From Megasphaera stantonii (GTDB lineage Bacteria; Bacillota; Negativicutes; Veillonellales; Megasphaeraceae), in the NCBI RefSeq assembly GCF_003367905.1, contig NZ_CP029462.1:930001-994000 (forward strand): a DNA stretch of 64,000 nt, in the 5' to 3' direction. The position numbers and the translations under genes are program-made. This document shows positions 8,511 through 13,698 of the stretch, in pieces (the stretch's first letter is position 1; every line of letters starts with the position of its first letter). The notes beneath the pieces were generated by a model. That model searched no databases and was not told the DNA's origin. It saw only the letters and a list, made by a program, of their open reading frames with translations.

Positions 8511-9314
8511 TTACGGCCGCCGGGCCTGCGCCGTTTCTTTATATGCAATGACGGCCAGCAGCATGAGAACGGAAACAATCGCCGTCACGCCGCCTGGCGC
8601 GGCGTCGATTCCGTAGGCGATGCCCAGGCCCAGAATAATATCTAAAAAGCTGAACAGGACGGACCATACCATAGTCCGGCGAAATCCCTTCCGCAGCTGC
8701 AGCGCCGTAGCTACCGGCAATGCAATGAGCGAACTGATGACCAGGATGCCGACGATGCGGATGGACACGGAAATCGTCGCCGCGACGAGGACGGCAAAGA
8801 CGTAGTTGATCAGACGGCTTTTTACGCCGGCGATCTTCGCCCCGTCTTCGTCAAAGGTCAGCATGACCAGCTGGGGGTACAGCTTGATAATCGTCAAAAT
8901 CGACACGATGCTGAGCAGCAGGACCGCCCACACGTCTTCCCGCGTCACCGTCAGGATGCTGCCGAATAAAAAGGACTCCACGTTGGTATGCACCATGCCG
9001 GAGCTGATAATTGTAATGGCGATGCCGACGGATAAGGACAGGATAATCACCAGTATCAGCTCGGCGTACTGACGGAACCGCTGGCGCAGCACTTCGATGA
9101 GAATGCCGAAGACCGACGTAAGGCCGAAGGCGCTGAGGATGGGATTGGCGTCCAGCAAAAGGCCGATGGCTACACCGGCCAGGGACGCATGGGATAAGGC
9201 GTCGCCGATCATGGAATAGCGGCGCAGCACGAGGAATATGCCGATGAGAGGGCATACGATGGAAATCAGCACGGCCACGATAAAGGCGTTCTGCATAAAA
9301 GCGTACTCAAACAT
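8511..9314 (-). CDS. znuB: Zinc (metal) ABC transporter permease
   Basis: 267 residues with about eight hydrophobic segments and the ABC-3 family signatures (PLIGIFLVLRRYSMIGDALSH near the N-terminus and SSLIALPVATAL late in the chain). It forms the membrane channel for Zn(II), or possibly Mn(II), uptake with ZnuC and ZnuA. It overlaps znuC by 8 bases and is followed by zur 12 bases later, so the order is znuC-znuB-zur. Confidence 0.9.
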   Translation of the reverse strand: MFEYAFMQNAFIVAVLISIVCPLIGIFLVLRRYSMIGDALSHASLAGVAIGLLLDANPILSAFGLTSVFGILIEVLRQRFRQYAELILVIILSLSVGIAITIISSGMVHTNVESFLFGSILTVTREDVWAVLLLSIVSILTIIKLYPQLVMLTFDEDGAKIAGVKSRLINYVFAVLVAATISVSIRIVGILVISSLIALPVATALQLRKGFRRTMVWSVLFSFLDIILGLGIAYGIDAAPGGVTAIVSVLMLLAVIAYKETAQARRP

Positions 9315-9981
9315 TGCCGTCCCTCCCCATGTTGTCCGATACGTATTCGCGGATATAGTCTTCCGGCGAGCAGAAATGGCCGCCGCCGTTGACGACGTGA
9401 AACATCTTCGTCGAATTCTTAGCGGCGAACTTCAGGTTATGCTCTACCGTCAGGACCGTTACGCCCCGGTCCTGATTCAAATGGCGGATAAAGGGATACA
9501 GCTCCATCTGGCTCTTGACGTCGATGCCCGTCGACGGCTCGTCAAAAATGAGCAGATCAGGCTCGCCCATGAGGGCCCGGGCAATGAGCACCTTCTGGCA
9601 TTGGCCGCCTGACAAGTTGCCTATGAGCTGGTCCTTTAACTCATATACGTTCATTTGCTCCAGCGAGCGTCGGATAATATCCTTATCCTTATATCCCAAT
9701 ATTCTGCGCTGGCAGTTCAGCACCTCGTAGACTGTAATGGGAAACTGGCTGTTCAGCGTTTCAAACCGCTGGGGCACGTATGCGCAGCGGCGGAAGGTAT
9801 TGGAAATCGTGCCGCGGCTCGGCGACAGCAGCCCCAATATCAGCTTTATGAGGGTGCTCTTGCCGCTGCCGTTTTCCCCGACGACGGAAATATAATCGCC
9901 GTCCTGCACGGTCATCGTAACATCCTGCAGTAAATAGGGCCCATGCTCATAGGCAAAGGACACCTTTTCTAATGAAATCAT
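9307..9981 (-). CDS. znuC: Zinc (metal) ABC transporter ATPase
   Basis: 224 residues: Walker A GENGSGKST (about 35-43), signature LSGGQCQKVLIARAL, Walker B LLIFDEPSTGID, switch histidine in TVEHNL. The C-terminus has a His/Cys-containing stretch (MFHVVNGGGHFC) that could sense metal. First gene of the minus-strand zinc operon, transcribed from a promoter whose -35 box lies inside the candidate Zur operator. Confidence 0.9.
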   Translation of the reverse strand: MISLEKVSFAYEHGPYLLQDVTMTVQDGDYISVVGENGSGKSTLIKLILGLLSPSRGTISNTFRRCAYVPQRFETLNSQFPITVYEVLNCQRRILGYKDKDIIRRSLEQMNVYELKDQLIGNLSGGQCQKVLIARALMGEPDLLIFDEPSTGIDVKSQMELYPFIRHLNQDRGVTVLTVEHNLKFAAKNSTKMFHVVNGGGHFCSPEDYIREYVSDNMGRDGNV

Positions 9982-10016
9982 AGCAGCTCCTTCTTATCAT
10001 ATAAAATACCTGCTCT

Positions 10017-10045
10017 ATTATATAGTCGTGAAAAGGAAAATGCAA
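10017..10045 (-). promoter_or_regulatory. Promoter of znuC-znuB-zur
   Basis: On the minus strand TTGCAT (10040-10045) and a perfect TATAAT (10017-10022) are 17 bases apart. The -35 box is part of the inverted repeat at 10038-10058. Confidence 0.6.
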
Positions 10046-10058
10046 GGCATTTGCATTT
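10038..10058. promoter_or_regulatory. Candidate Zur operator shared by divergent promoters
   Basis: Perfect 8-base arms AAATGCAA and TTGCATTT are separated by GGCAT, giving a 21-base near-palindrome of the size bound by Fur-family dimers. It covers the -35 box of the znuC promoter and ends two bases before the -35 box of the znuA promoter, so one bound repressor could shut both. The assignment to Zur is inference from position and size. Confidence 0.6.
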
Positions 10059-10059
10059 A

Positions 10060-10089
10060 TTGACAAGGGACAACGGTTAGTGCTATGAT
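10060..10089 (+). promoter_or_regulatory. Promoter of znuA
   Basis: Consensus TTGACA (10060-10065) and TATGAT (10084-10089) are separated by 18 bases. Confidence 0.65.
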
Positions 10090-10137
10090 ACAGTTTATAC
10101 TATACGTATATATTCCTATTTCAGAGGAGGATATGTT

Positions 10138-11046
10138 ATGAAATCATGGCTTACAGCCTGTATCACAATGATAGCAGCGGCCGTGCTCCTTGCGGGCTGC
10201 GGCGCCCAATCCGACGGCTCCGTCCAGTCCGACGGCAAACTGAAAGTCGTCGCCTCTTTCAACGCGATGAAAGAATTTACCCAGGCCGTCGGCAAGGATA
10301 AGGTCGACGTCGTCACCTTGATTCCCGACGGCACGGAGCCCCACGATTTTCAGCCGACGACGAAAAATCTCAAGGAATTGAGCCATGCCCGCTTATTCGT
10401 GTACAACGGCCTGGGCATGGAGCCCTGGGCGGATAAAACGCTGGAAGTCGTAGACAATAAAAACCTCGTCGCCGTCGACGCTTCGAAAGGCGTCCAGGTA
10501 ATCGCCAATACAGACAAGCACGATATACACGAACACGGCCGCGACGATCCCCACTGCTGGCTCAGCCTGCAGGCCGCTCAGACGGAAGTACAGAACATCG
10601 CCGCCGCCCTGGCTGAAGCCGACCCGGCCAACGCCGAATTTTACCGCGAAAACGCCGCCGCTTATAACGAACAGCTCCAGCAGGTGCTGGCGGAATATCA
10701 GGAAAAATTCCAATCCGTCCCGAACCGGCAGTTCGTCACAGGCCACGCCGCCTTCGCCTACTTGTGCCGCGATTTCGGCCTGACGCAGCGCAGCGTCGAG
10801 TCGGTCTTTGCCAGCGGCGAGCCGAGCCCTCAGCAGCTTGCCAGCCTGGCTGATTTCTGCAAGCAGCATAAGGTGAAGACAATTTTTTCCGAAACCATGG
10901 TCAGCCCCAAGATTTCGGAAACCCTGGCCAAGGAAGTAGGCGCGTCGGTCAAAACGATCCACACCATCGAAAGCGCCGAAGGAAAGGCAACCTATATAGA
11001 CCGCATGCGCGACAATATCGAACAGATTTACCAAAGCCTGAAATAG
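10138..11046 (+). CDS. znuA: Zinc-binding lipoprotein of the ABC transporter
   Basis: 302 residues. A lipoprotein signal (lipobox LLAGC, Cys about residue 21) precedes a cluster A-I metal-binding fold. Likely metal ligands are His in EPHDF, His in DPHCW, His in GHAAFAYL and the late acidic site. A short His-rich loop (HDIHEH) sits before DPHCW, as in ZnuA proteins, and favours zinc over manganese. The strong AGAGGAGG site supports the ATG at 10138. It is transcribed divergently from znuCB and ends at a strong terminator. Confidence 0.92.
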   Translation: MKSWLTACITMIAAAVLLAGCGAQSDGSVQSDGKLKVVASFNAMKEFTQAVGKDKVDVVTLIPDGTEPHDFQPTTKNLKELSHARLFVYNGLGMEPWADKTLEVVDNKNLVAVDASKGVQVIANTDKHDIHEHGRDDPHCWLSLQAAQTEVQNIAAALAEADPANAEFYRENAAAYNEQLQQVLAEYQEKFQSVPNRQFVTGHAAFAYLCRDFGLTQRSVESVFASGEPSPQQLASLADFCKQHKVKTIFSETMVSPKISETLAKEVGASVKTIHTIESAEGKATYIDRMRDNIEQIYQSLK

Positions 11047-11831: not shown

Positions 11832-13280
11832 TCAATGCTGAGCCGGTACGGCCTTCGTCTTGCCTTCCTGTACGGCAGCCGGTTCGACGCCTTCCATGTG
11901 GATGGCGTTGCTGCGCGTCACGGCGCTGATGCCGACAAAGAGGACGCCGCAGACAATCCATTCGGCATAAATGACATGCGGCAGAACGCGGACGGCCGGT
12001 ACGAACATCCAGGCTACGAGAACGACGACCGAAGCCAGAATCGTATAGAAGGCGGCTGCGCGGGAGCAGTATTTCGGCGCATACATCGTCATGAGAACGA
12101 TGACGCTGAACGCCGTCATGAGGCTGAGGCCGGCCATGAGCGTGGAGATGATGCCGCTGATGGTCAAGGCAAAGCTCAGCGTAAGCAGGCCGAGGAGGAA
12201 TACGGAAATACGGGTAACGTTGAGATACTTGCTGTCGGACATATTCGGGTCGACGAAGCGTTTGTGAATGTCATGGGAATACAGCGTCGCCGAGCTGAGC
12301 AGGAGATTGCAGGCGCAGCTGACGTCGGCTGCCCAAAGAGCCGCCAAGGTAATGCCGGCCAGCCACGGGTCGAGGGACATGATGACCTGGGGCAATGCAG
12401 CCGTAGCCGAAATGTTGGGATATAATTCCGAAGCGATGACGCCGAGGAGGGCGCTGACGAAACCAATCGGCAGCATGAGCAGTCCGCCGATGATGAAGCC
12501 TTTGCGGGCCGTGTGCACGTCTTTTGCACCAAGGGAAATCTGGATGATGCTCTGAAGGGACAGGTTGACCGTAATGAGGACGATAATCCACGTAACGATG
12601 GTCATGGGTCCTACGCCGTCGATGAAATCGAGGCCGTGAGGCATGGGCAGGTTCATCTGGATTTGATCCATGCCGCCGGCCATGCGCACTGCCAGTACGA
12701 CGGCCATGAGGATGCCGGCGTATTTCAGGGACACGTTCATGAGGTTCGTAATGCTGGCCGACCACATGCCGCCGATCAGGGTTACACCGATGAAGACGAC
12801 AGCGCTCATGAGCATCCCTGTCGTCGGCGTGAAGATTTCCGGCATAAGGGCGGCGAGAATCATGCCGCCGGCAACGTACTGCATGCTCATGACGACGAGC
12901 TGTACGATGATCTGGCAAATGATGCCGATAATCATGCTCTTCTTATCGTAATACCGTTCCAGCATTTCGGGAATCGTCGTGATGTTGAGGCTGCGGTATT
13001 TTTTAGCGACGGTCATGCCCATGACGATCGCGCCGATGCCCCAGGCCGTCGTGTACCAGCCGGCGGAAAGACCGGCTTTATAGGCCTGTTCGGCAACGCC
13101 GATAGTCGACGCGCCGCCGACGGCCAGGCCGACGATAGAAACCATGATAAGCGGCGTCGTGAGCTGACGGCCGGCCAGGATATAGTTTTCCGCCTTCCCG
13201 GCAGCGCGGTGCTTCGTGTACCAGCTGATTAAGAAAATCGTACAAATGTACAAACCTACGACAATAACTGAACTGTTCAT
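11832..13280 (-). CDS. Sodium:solute symporter (SSF family), predicted phenylalanine/aromatic transporter
   Basis: 482 residues with about 13 hydrophobic segments, the normal SSF size. Typical family segments are the N-terminal YILAGRQLTTP, the Gly/Ala-rich VGGASTIGVAEQAYKAG, and MWSASITNLMNVSLKYAG. SSF proteins couple Na+ to uptake of amino acids, sugars or carboxylates, and the family alone does not give the substrate. The leader is a T-box whose specifier reads UUC, which suggests induction by uncharged tRNA-Phe and therefore uptake of phenylalanine or a precursor. The ATG has an AGGAGG site. The gene appears to be the only one in its transcript. Confidence 0.85.
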   Translation of the reverse strand: MNSSVIVVGLYICTIFLISWYTKHRAAGKAENYILAGRQLTTPLIMVSIVGLAVGGASTIGVAEQAYKAGLSAGWYTTAWGIGAIVMGMTVAKKYRSLNITTIPEMLERYYDKKSMIIGIICQIIVQLVVMSMQYVAGGMILAALMPEIFTPTTGMLMSAVVFIGVTLIGGMWSASITNLMNVSLKYAGILMAVVLAVRMAGGMDQIQMNLPMPHGLDFIDGVGPMTIVTWIIVLITVNLSLQSIIQISLGAKDVHTARKGFIIGGLLMLPIGFVSALLGVIASELYPNISATAALPQVIMSLDPWLAGITLAALWAADVSCACNLLLSSATLYSHDIHKRFVDPNMSDSKYLNVTRISVFLLGLLTLSFALTISGIISTLMAGLSLMTAFSVIVLMTMYAPKYCSRAAAFYTILASVVVLVAWMFVPAVRVLPHVIYAEWIVCGVLFVGISAVTRSNAIHMEGVEPAAVQEGKTKAVPAQH

Positions 13281-13342: not shown

Positions 13343-13371
13343 AAAAAAATCGCCCCTCCATGAGGGACGAT
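13343..13371 (-). terminator. Second T-box terminator
   Basis: ATCGTCCCTC and GAGGGGCGAT form a 10-base-pair stem (one G-U) with an AUG loop, followed by seven U. It competes with the antiterminator formed by the second T-box sequence (13377-13390). Confidence 0.85.
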
Positions 13372-13412
13372 GAACTCGCGGTACCACCCTGCTTACCTGC
13401 ATTCCAGAATAC

Positions 13413-13458
13413 AAAAAGGGTGATACCCAAGGGACGAACATCTCCGCGGTACCACCCT
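13413..13458 (-). terminator. First T-box terminator
   Basis: The AGGGUGGUACC of the first T-box pairs with GGUAUCACCCU (one G-U), followed by five U. The T-box nucleotides are therefore used either in the tRNA-stabilised antiterminator or in this terminator stem. Confidence 0.7.
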
Positions 13459-13670
13459 AATAATCTCGAATCAGATCAACTCATAGCAATGTAACGGTCG
13501 CCATACCGGATCGGCCTACTGATTTCTGTTCAGCCTCACAGTTCAGGAAAGAACTTCACGCTGCATCACCTGCCGGTTTACACCGCCCACCGGCTCTCTG
13601 CGAGGGTATTTGCAGCCCTACTTTTTTCCGTCTATACCTTTATCGGGAACTTATATTGTGTCGTGATTTC

Positions 13671-13698
13671 ATTATACGAAAAATAAGAGAATTGTCAA
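13671..13698 (-). promoter_or_regulatory. Promoter of the T-box leader
   Basis: Minus-strand TTGACA (13693-13698) and TATAAT (13671-13676), 16 bases apart, both consensus. Confidence 0.8.

Follow-up and report, generated by a model that had tools for sequence, protein, structure and literature searches.

We read the leader of a sodium symporter gene in the window (the whole 64,000-nucleotide stretch of Megasphaera stantonii DNA analysed here) as a partially tandem phenylalanine T-box, in which one tRNA-binding arm is followed by two tRNA-sensing platforms in series. This reading is likely, and the transporter would probably be specific for phenylalanine or aromatic substrates. All elements lie on the minus strand, in the order promoter, single Stem I with specifier UUC, Stem II and Stem IIA/B, two antiterminator/terminator platforms, and symporter gene:

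13671-13698, minus strand: promoter, with TTGACA (13698-13693), a 16-nt spacer and TATAAT (13676-13671); consensus matches 12/12.
13541-13637, minus strand: Stem I (decoding arm), with an AGUA/GAA specifier loop and AGAGA/GGUG apical motifs (Rfam RF00230 alignment; conserved in orthologs).
13551-13553, minus strand: specifier UUC (Phe), from the Rfam alignment.
13492-13538, minus strand: Stem II and Stem IIA/B region, with the CCGUUA F-box at 13497-13492 (Rfam alignment; once per array).
13463-13476, minus strand: short Stem III, AUCU (13476-13473) with AGAU (13466-13463), read from the sequence where Rfam places Stem III.
13445-13458, minus strand: T-box sequence 1, AGGGUGGUACCGCG (sequence and Rfam).
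13430-13458, minus strand: antiterminator 1, with A1 helix AGGG/CCCU, bulge UGGUACC (13454-13448) and A2 helix (fold).
13413-13458, minus strand: terminator 1, 5'-strand type, U-run 13417-13413 (minimum free energy (MFE) fold and comparison of arrays).
13417-13427, minus strand: partner strand p, GGUAUCACCCU, also able to pair with T-box 2 (pairing and duplex folds).
13391-13412, minus strand: linker between the platforms, without a conserved stem (linker folding test negative).
13377-13390, minus strand: T-box sequence 2, AGGGUGGUACCGCG (sequence reading).
13361-13390, minus strand: antiterminator 2, topology as in antiterminator 1 (centroid fold).
13343-13371, minus strand: terminator 2, canonical 3'-strand type, U-run 13349-13343 (terminator scan and fold).
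11832-13280, minus strand: regulated gene, an SSS-family sodium:solute symporter of 482 aa (Pfam PF00474), with ribosome-binding site AGGAGG at 13294-13289.

The first-pass annotation had described one promoter and one Stem I (UUC) before two T-boxes, each with a terminator, and both Rfam and the folds bear out this layout and its coordinates. A single promoter, at 13698-13671 (minus strand), stands ahead of both platforms. The only T-box leader that Rfam RF00230 finds in the window, at 13643-13427 (minus strand; 120.7 bits, gathering score 93), matches the full model (1-219), has UUC in the specifier position and ends just past antiterminator 1. Between the first U-run, which ends at 13413, and T-box 2, which starts at 13390, lie 22 bases rather than the approximately 27 given earlier. 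Because this 22-nt linker is too small for a second Stem I and there is one Rfam match, the leader is not of the full tandem class; one Stem I with two terminator/antiterminator units is the arrangement of a partially tandem T-box. A hidden second Stem I was considered and rejected, with one match in the window and, over 18 scanned loci that hold 22 arrays, 21 T-box matches. The linker folding test, applied to 80 distinct linkers, found no private Stem III for platform 2 (median p 0.495). With one Stem I per array and two folded terminators, the earlier proposal of a single decoding arm and two terminators in series stands.

Elsewhere in the window, a glycine riboswitch (RF00504, 20935-20843, minus strand, 55.5 bits) lies upstream of a 462-aa membrane protein (20733-19345), which we take to resemble a sodium:alanine/glycine symporter. 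The genes at 8511-11046 presumably resemble those of a metal ABC transporter (permease, ATPase, divergent binding protein).

In a T-box leader, Stem I is the docking site of uncharged tRNA, whose ACCA end base-pairs with UGGU; the terminator is usually the 3' strand of the antiterminator, which is no strict family criterion. Both platforms here carry a UGGU bulge complementary to the A-CCA end of tRNA-Phe, and in both the antiterminator and terminator are mutually exclusive via shared strands. T-box 2 (13390-13377) is an exact 14-base repeat of T-box 1 (13458-13445). When a short stretch is folded, the MFE structure of antiterminator 1 consists of the A1 helix, the 7-nt UGGUACC bulge and the A2 helix (-6.8 kcal/mol), and the centroid of antiterminator 2 has the same A1, bulge and A2 (about -6.5 kcal/mol); neither value stands out from those of shuffled sequences.

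Rather than using the 3' strand of the antiterminator, as a canonical T-box does and as platform 2 does here, terminator 1 is made from the T-box 5' strand, which contains the tRNA-pairing UGGU, and a downstream partner strand, p. Its 11-bp stem pairs AGGGUGGUACC (13458-13448) with GGUAUCACCCU (13427-13417) and is followed by U5; the MFE of -22.5 kcal/mol (z -3.4) was equalled by 0 of 200 shuffles. In the window, the inner loop of this terminator is long, and its U-run ends at a G after just five U. For terminator 2 (13371-13349, then U7), the folded stretch has an MFE of -19.8 (z -2.8), equalled by 3 of 200 shuffles. A simple terminator scan listed terminator 2 only, because its loops were limited to 3-8 nt. 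With a terminator of the 5'-strand type, platform 1 is thus a variant and no typical unit. The two platforms had been taken as equivalent, an assumption that fails for the first terminator, built as it is from the tRNA-binding strand.

The strand type can be assigned across related leaders by pairing the strand before the U-run with either the T-box 5' strand (GGGUGGUACC) or the antiterminator 3' strand and requiring a margin >1 kcal/mol. Among 85 distinct double arrays, which include four from outside the class (L116-L119) with canonical 3'-strand first terminators, and whose counts are non-independent because many arrays are close relatives, 76 first platforms are assigned to the 5' strand and 5 to the 3' strand; for second platforms the respective counts are 2 and 82. 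Of 16 single T-boxes, 14 are assigned to the 3' strand. The complementarity of p to the T-box 5' strand averages -12.6 kcal/mol, vs -7.0 kcal/mol for dinucleotide shuffles. At p<=0.05 against such shuffles, first platforms (L116-L119 omitted) score for the 5' strand in 39/57 distinct sequences and for the 3' strand in 1/57; last platforms score for the 3' strand in 43/65 and for the 5' strand in 6/65. In Clostridium arrays p pairs weakly (-7.2), and in an f18 clade its pairing is ambiguous. In two distinct triple arrays (L096 and L097), platforms 1 and 2 are of the 5'-strand type, and the third parsed poorly.

The symporter was searched for in 120 related genomes, 79 of which gave a match at E<=1e-30, and the 30 best matches, one per genome and with the window's own genome included, were taken as loci L019-L048. 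Two T-box cores (<=2 mismatches each) lie upstream of the symporter in all 30 (65-100% identical), so the loss of T-box 2 in close relatives, which the first-pass annotation had named as evidence against its reading, is not seen. A GTDB scan of 34 loci, from genomes overlapping the 30, gave two cores in 29, one core in 1 (Clostridium magnum) and none in 4. One of these four, from Allisonella (L082), has the double array in its locus and was scored without cores because a partial match misplaced its gene start; the other three are Synergistales homologs with ~45% identity. Carriers of the double array include Megasphaera, Veillonella, Propionispora, Sporomusa, Pelosinus and three Clostridium species. 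The pattern of two UGGU cores occurs in 78/380 genomes of the class (36/102 genera; control patterns gave zero) and in 6/398 genomes of a phylum sample, three of them from the window's own genus. Family f14, the largest group sampled, yielded one pattern match only. In the stretches read before symporter homologs, a T-box is absent from four f18 genomes (56-58% identity) and from before a 50% homolog. One symporter leader (L176, the same place as L030) has a drifted T-box 1 (GGUGGUCCCUCG) with an intact T-box 2.

The A1 helix is intact in 48/48 distinct first platforms and 49/49 distinct second platforms. In A2, pairs 1, 4 and 5 swap between GC, GU, AU, UA and CG, with pairing retained in most. 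The motif CGYCYC, in the antiterminator 1 3' strand and unused by terminator 1, is found in 87/87 first platforms. Because A1 is kept, A2 is compensatory and CGYCYC is retained in first platforms, selection acts on both antiterminators. A duplicated platform in decay is rejected, since the two copies are conserved and covary; on this comparison of sequences, the double array is neither chance nor decay.

A regular-expression parse of 89 arrays returned the specifier UUC in 79 and UAC in 6, left 3 without a call and misparsed 1 as UCC; the latter (L129) is UUC by eye, which brings the Phe/Tyr specifiers to 86/89. The host genome encodes a tRNA-Phe with anticodon GAA and an A73-CCA end, which fits both UUC and UGGU (Rfam, ARAGORN). 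The earlier assignment to the phenylalanine type is thus upheld by the retention of UUC, by UAC on sister genes and by the host tRNA. A serine frame (UCN, one base on) is not favoured: in sister arrays UAC takes the place of UUC, the regulated genes are aromatic ones and UGGU suits A73. It is further disfavoured by the arrays before what we recognise as serC genes, which carry UGGC first. Partially tandem T-boxes before serC-like genes (L184-L194, e.g. L189, L190, L192 and L194) include some with UGGC first and UGGU second; in such a leader, one tRNA-Ser would therefore need to fit two different discriminator partners.

The symporter itself matches Pfam PF00474 with 89.8 bits (cut-off 22.8) and falls under every NCBIfam subfamily cut-off; the substrate suggested above comes from the T-box specifier, the protein match being at the SSF family level only. 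Double arrays with UUC (Phe) or UAC (Tyr) also precede other aromatic amino acid genes. Their targets include TrpX-like substrate-binding proteins (so named from the top NCBIfam match, which scores under the cut-off), proteins most closely related, among solved structures, to cyclohexadienyl dehydratases (5jos, E 3.4e-79) and, behind a triple array, DAHP synthase (above the NCBIfam cut-off). The TrpX-like genes (L121, L122, L123, L124) occur as neighbouring pairs with double-platform T-boxes, often one with UUC and the other with UAC, a split that suggests duplication with change of specificity. The DAHP synthase gene has three serial T-box platforms with one Stem I (L096, L097 and L120 = G103:C132:30901-31041); the triple-array pattern is found in three genomes (G087, G096 and G103). 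The array also predicts membership of the phenylalanine/tyrosine regulon for these symporters and their companion genes.

How could one arm work with two platforms? From what is known of the family, Stem I would dock tRNA-Phe during its transcription. An uncharged tRNA would pair by its ACCA end with the UGGU of T-box 1, holding antiterminator 1 and blocking terminator 1; with a charged one, p would capture the whole T-box 1 5' strand, UGGU included, and RNA polymerase would stop near 13413. T-box 2 would then repeat the test, with the canonical terminator near 13343. Since there is only one Stem I, the same tRNA would serve both platforms; in the least certain step, T-box 1 would be released after polymerase passage and the tRNA handed to T-box 2. 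Terminator 1 might help this hand-over, because its formation hides the UGGU of T-box 1. The expected outcome is less leakage, and the charging of the tRNA would be verified again before any transporter is synthesized. The tighter repression proposed in the first-pass annotation may also result. The proposed mechanism comprises two serial tests, in which a single tRNA end would pass from the first platform to the second. A two-step ratchet is a possibility that we hold to be doubtful: p would displace the tRNA end from T-box 1, hide T-box 1 and pass the same tRNA to T-box 2, so that charging is verified in two rounds (kinetic proofreading), and the role of the 5'-strand terminator would be to remove a T-box already used.

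With two identical T-boxes, p has a choice of partners, and the stretch GUGGUACCRC also permits T-box 1 to pair with T-box 2 (10 bp, about -19 kcal/mol). On average over 75 arrays, just-transcribed p forms 9.6 pairs with T-box 1. Once T-box 2 is transcribed, the equilibrium folds of the 75 arrays are dominated by terminator 1 (10 arrays), p:T-box 2 (28) or T-box 1:T-box 2 (37), and the full stretch of the window favours p:T-box 2 at equilibrium. As hairpins, p:T-box 2 and terminator 1 have -22.9 vs -22.1 kcal/mol in the window. These equilibrium pairings speak against a simple picture of terminator 1 staying put. In such folds T-box 2 may be hidden by default without tRNA, and the p:T-box 2 and T-box 1:T-box 2 pairings, by covering T-box 2, would oppose hand-over unless kept from forming by tRNA or by kinetics.

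The first-pass annotation had offered either a weaker control of the second platform or two tRNAs. This choice was incomplete, and hand-over of one tRNA end after platform 1 is a third option. With two tRNAs, the one bound to Stem I would serve platform 1, and a second uncharged tRNA would bind T-box 2 by its acceptor end alone. Two complete, conserved UGGU bulges and a linker without a second decoding arm are what such a scheme predicts; however, a tRNA without Stem I undergoes no anticodon selection, and any A73 tRNA fits UGGU, so Phe specificity would be destroyed. A four-base acceptor contact alone is also weak, and we regard this explanation as very unlikely. Somewhat less improbable, yet still unlikely, is that platform 2 alone responds to tRNA in practice and platform 1 is a fixed, leaky attenuator lowering basal transcription. 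The long loop and partial weakness of terminator 1 would suit that role, as would the mostly canonical design of single T-boxes, but it leaves the universal CGYCYC, outside terminator 1, and the compensatory changes in A2 as marks of selection on antiterminator 1.

The pairing of p with both T-boxes also raises the possibility of a logic element. Here p would toggle between T-box 1 and T-box 2, and a stable tRNA on T-box 1 would free p to hide T-box 2 and turn the gene off again, with the consequence that expression occurs only within a limited range of tRNA charging or transcription speed. Over 79 arrays, p:T-box 2 hairpins are almost as stable as terminator 1 (mean -15.9 vs -18.4 kcal/mol). 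However, this pairing is automatic given identical T-boxes. In 26 of the 79 arrays the duplex of p with T-box 1 is the more stable by >1 kcal/mol, and in 7 the duplex with T-box 2 is. A selected p:T-box 2 switch is thus not favoured, and we give the logic element as little chance as the two tRNAs. We therefore retain serial testing of one tRNA as the best explanation.

Vitreschak et al. reportedly described, in 2008 (RNA 14:717), a T-box class with duplicated terminator-antiterminator elements. The canonical T-box (RF00230) shares with our leader the Stem I, specifier, Stem II/IIA-B and UGGN-bulge antiterminator; the second platform is extra. Full tandem T-boxes (trpE, thrS/thrZ and others) likewise place repeated tRNA-controlled terminators in one leader, but each unit has its own Stem I, whereas in the symporter set Stem I is shared and the platforms are 58-84 nt apart. 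A sharper response has been proposed for full tandem T-boxes (PMC9413887, PMC12452182).

Partially tandem T-boxes, which likewise have one Stem I followed by two terminator/antiterminator units, are known, and a 2020 review calls their mode of action unknown (PMC7583486). A 2025 survey (PMC12452182) divides contiguous riboswitches into two sorts, namely units in complete tandem and neighbouring aptamers that have a single platform; its accessible portion contains no treatment of one aptamer with two platforms. Sodium symporters are named among genes with distant T-boxes in Wels 2008 (PMC2494555). In the open-licence literature, outside which most subscription papers lie, the parts available do not describe a first terminator of the 5'-strand type. 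Both this conserved element and its association with a Phe/Tyr regulon appear, tentatively, to be new.

The other partial tandems, before genes that we recognise by sight as serC, trpE, argG and others, likewise have one Stem I region and two T-box cores, 69-99 nt apart. Their first terminator is of the ordinary 3'-strand type by eye, as it is in the four that were scored (L116-L119), and they mostly serve other amino acids. The leaders described here, with two platforms on many genes and three on the DAHP synthase gene, provide a natural conserved series for partially tandem T-boxes, in which each step is separately breakable because the two terminators draw on opposite strands of one switch.
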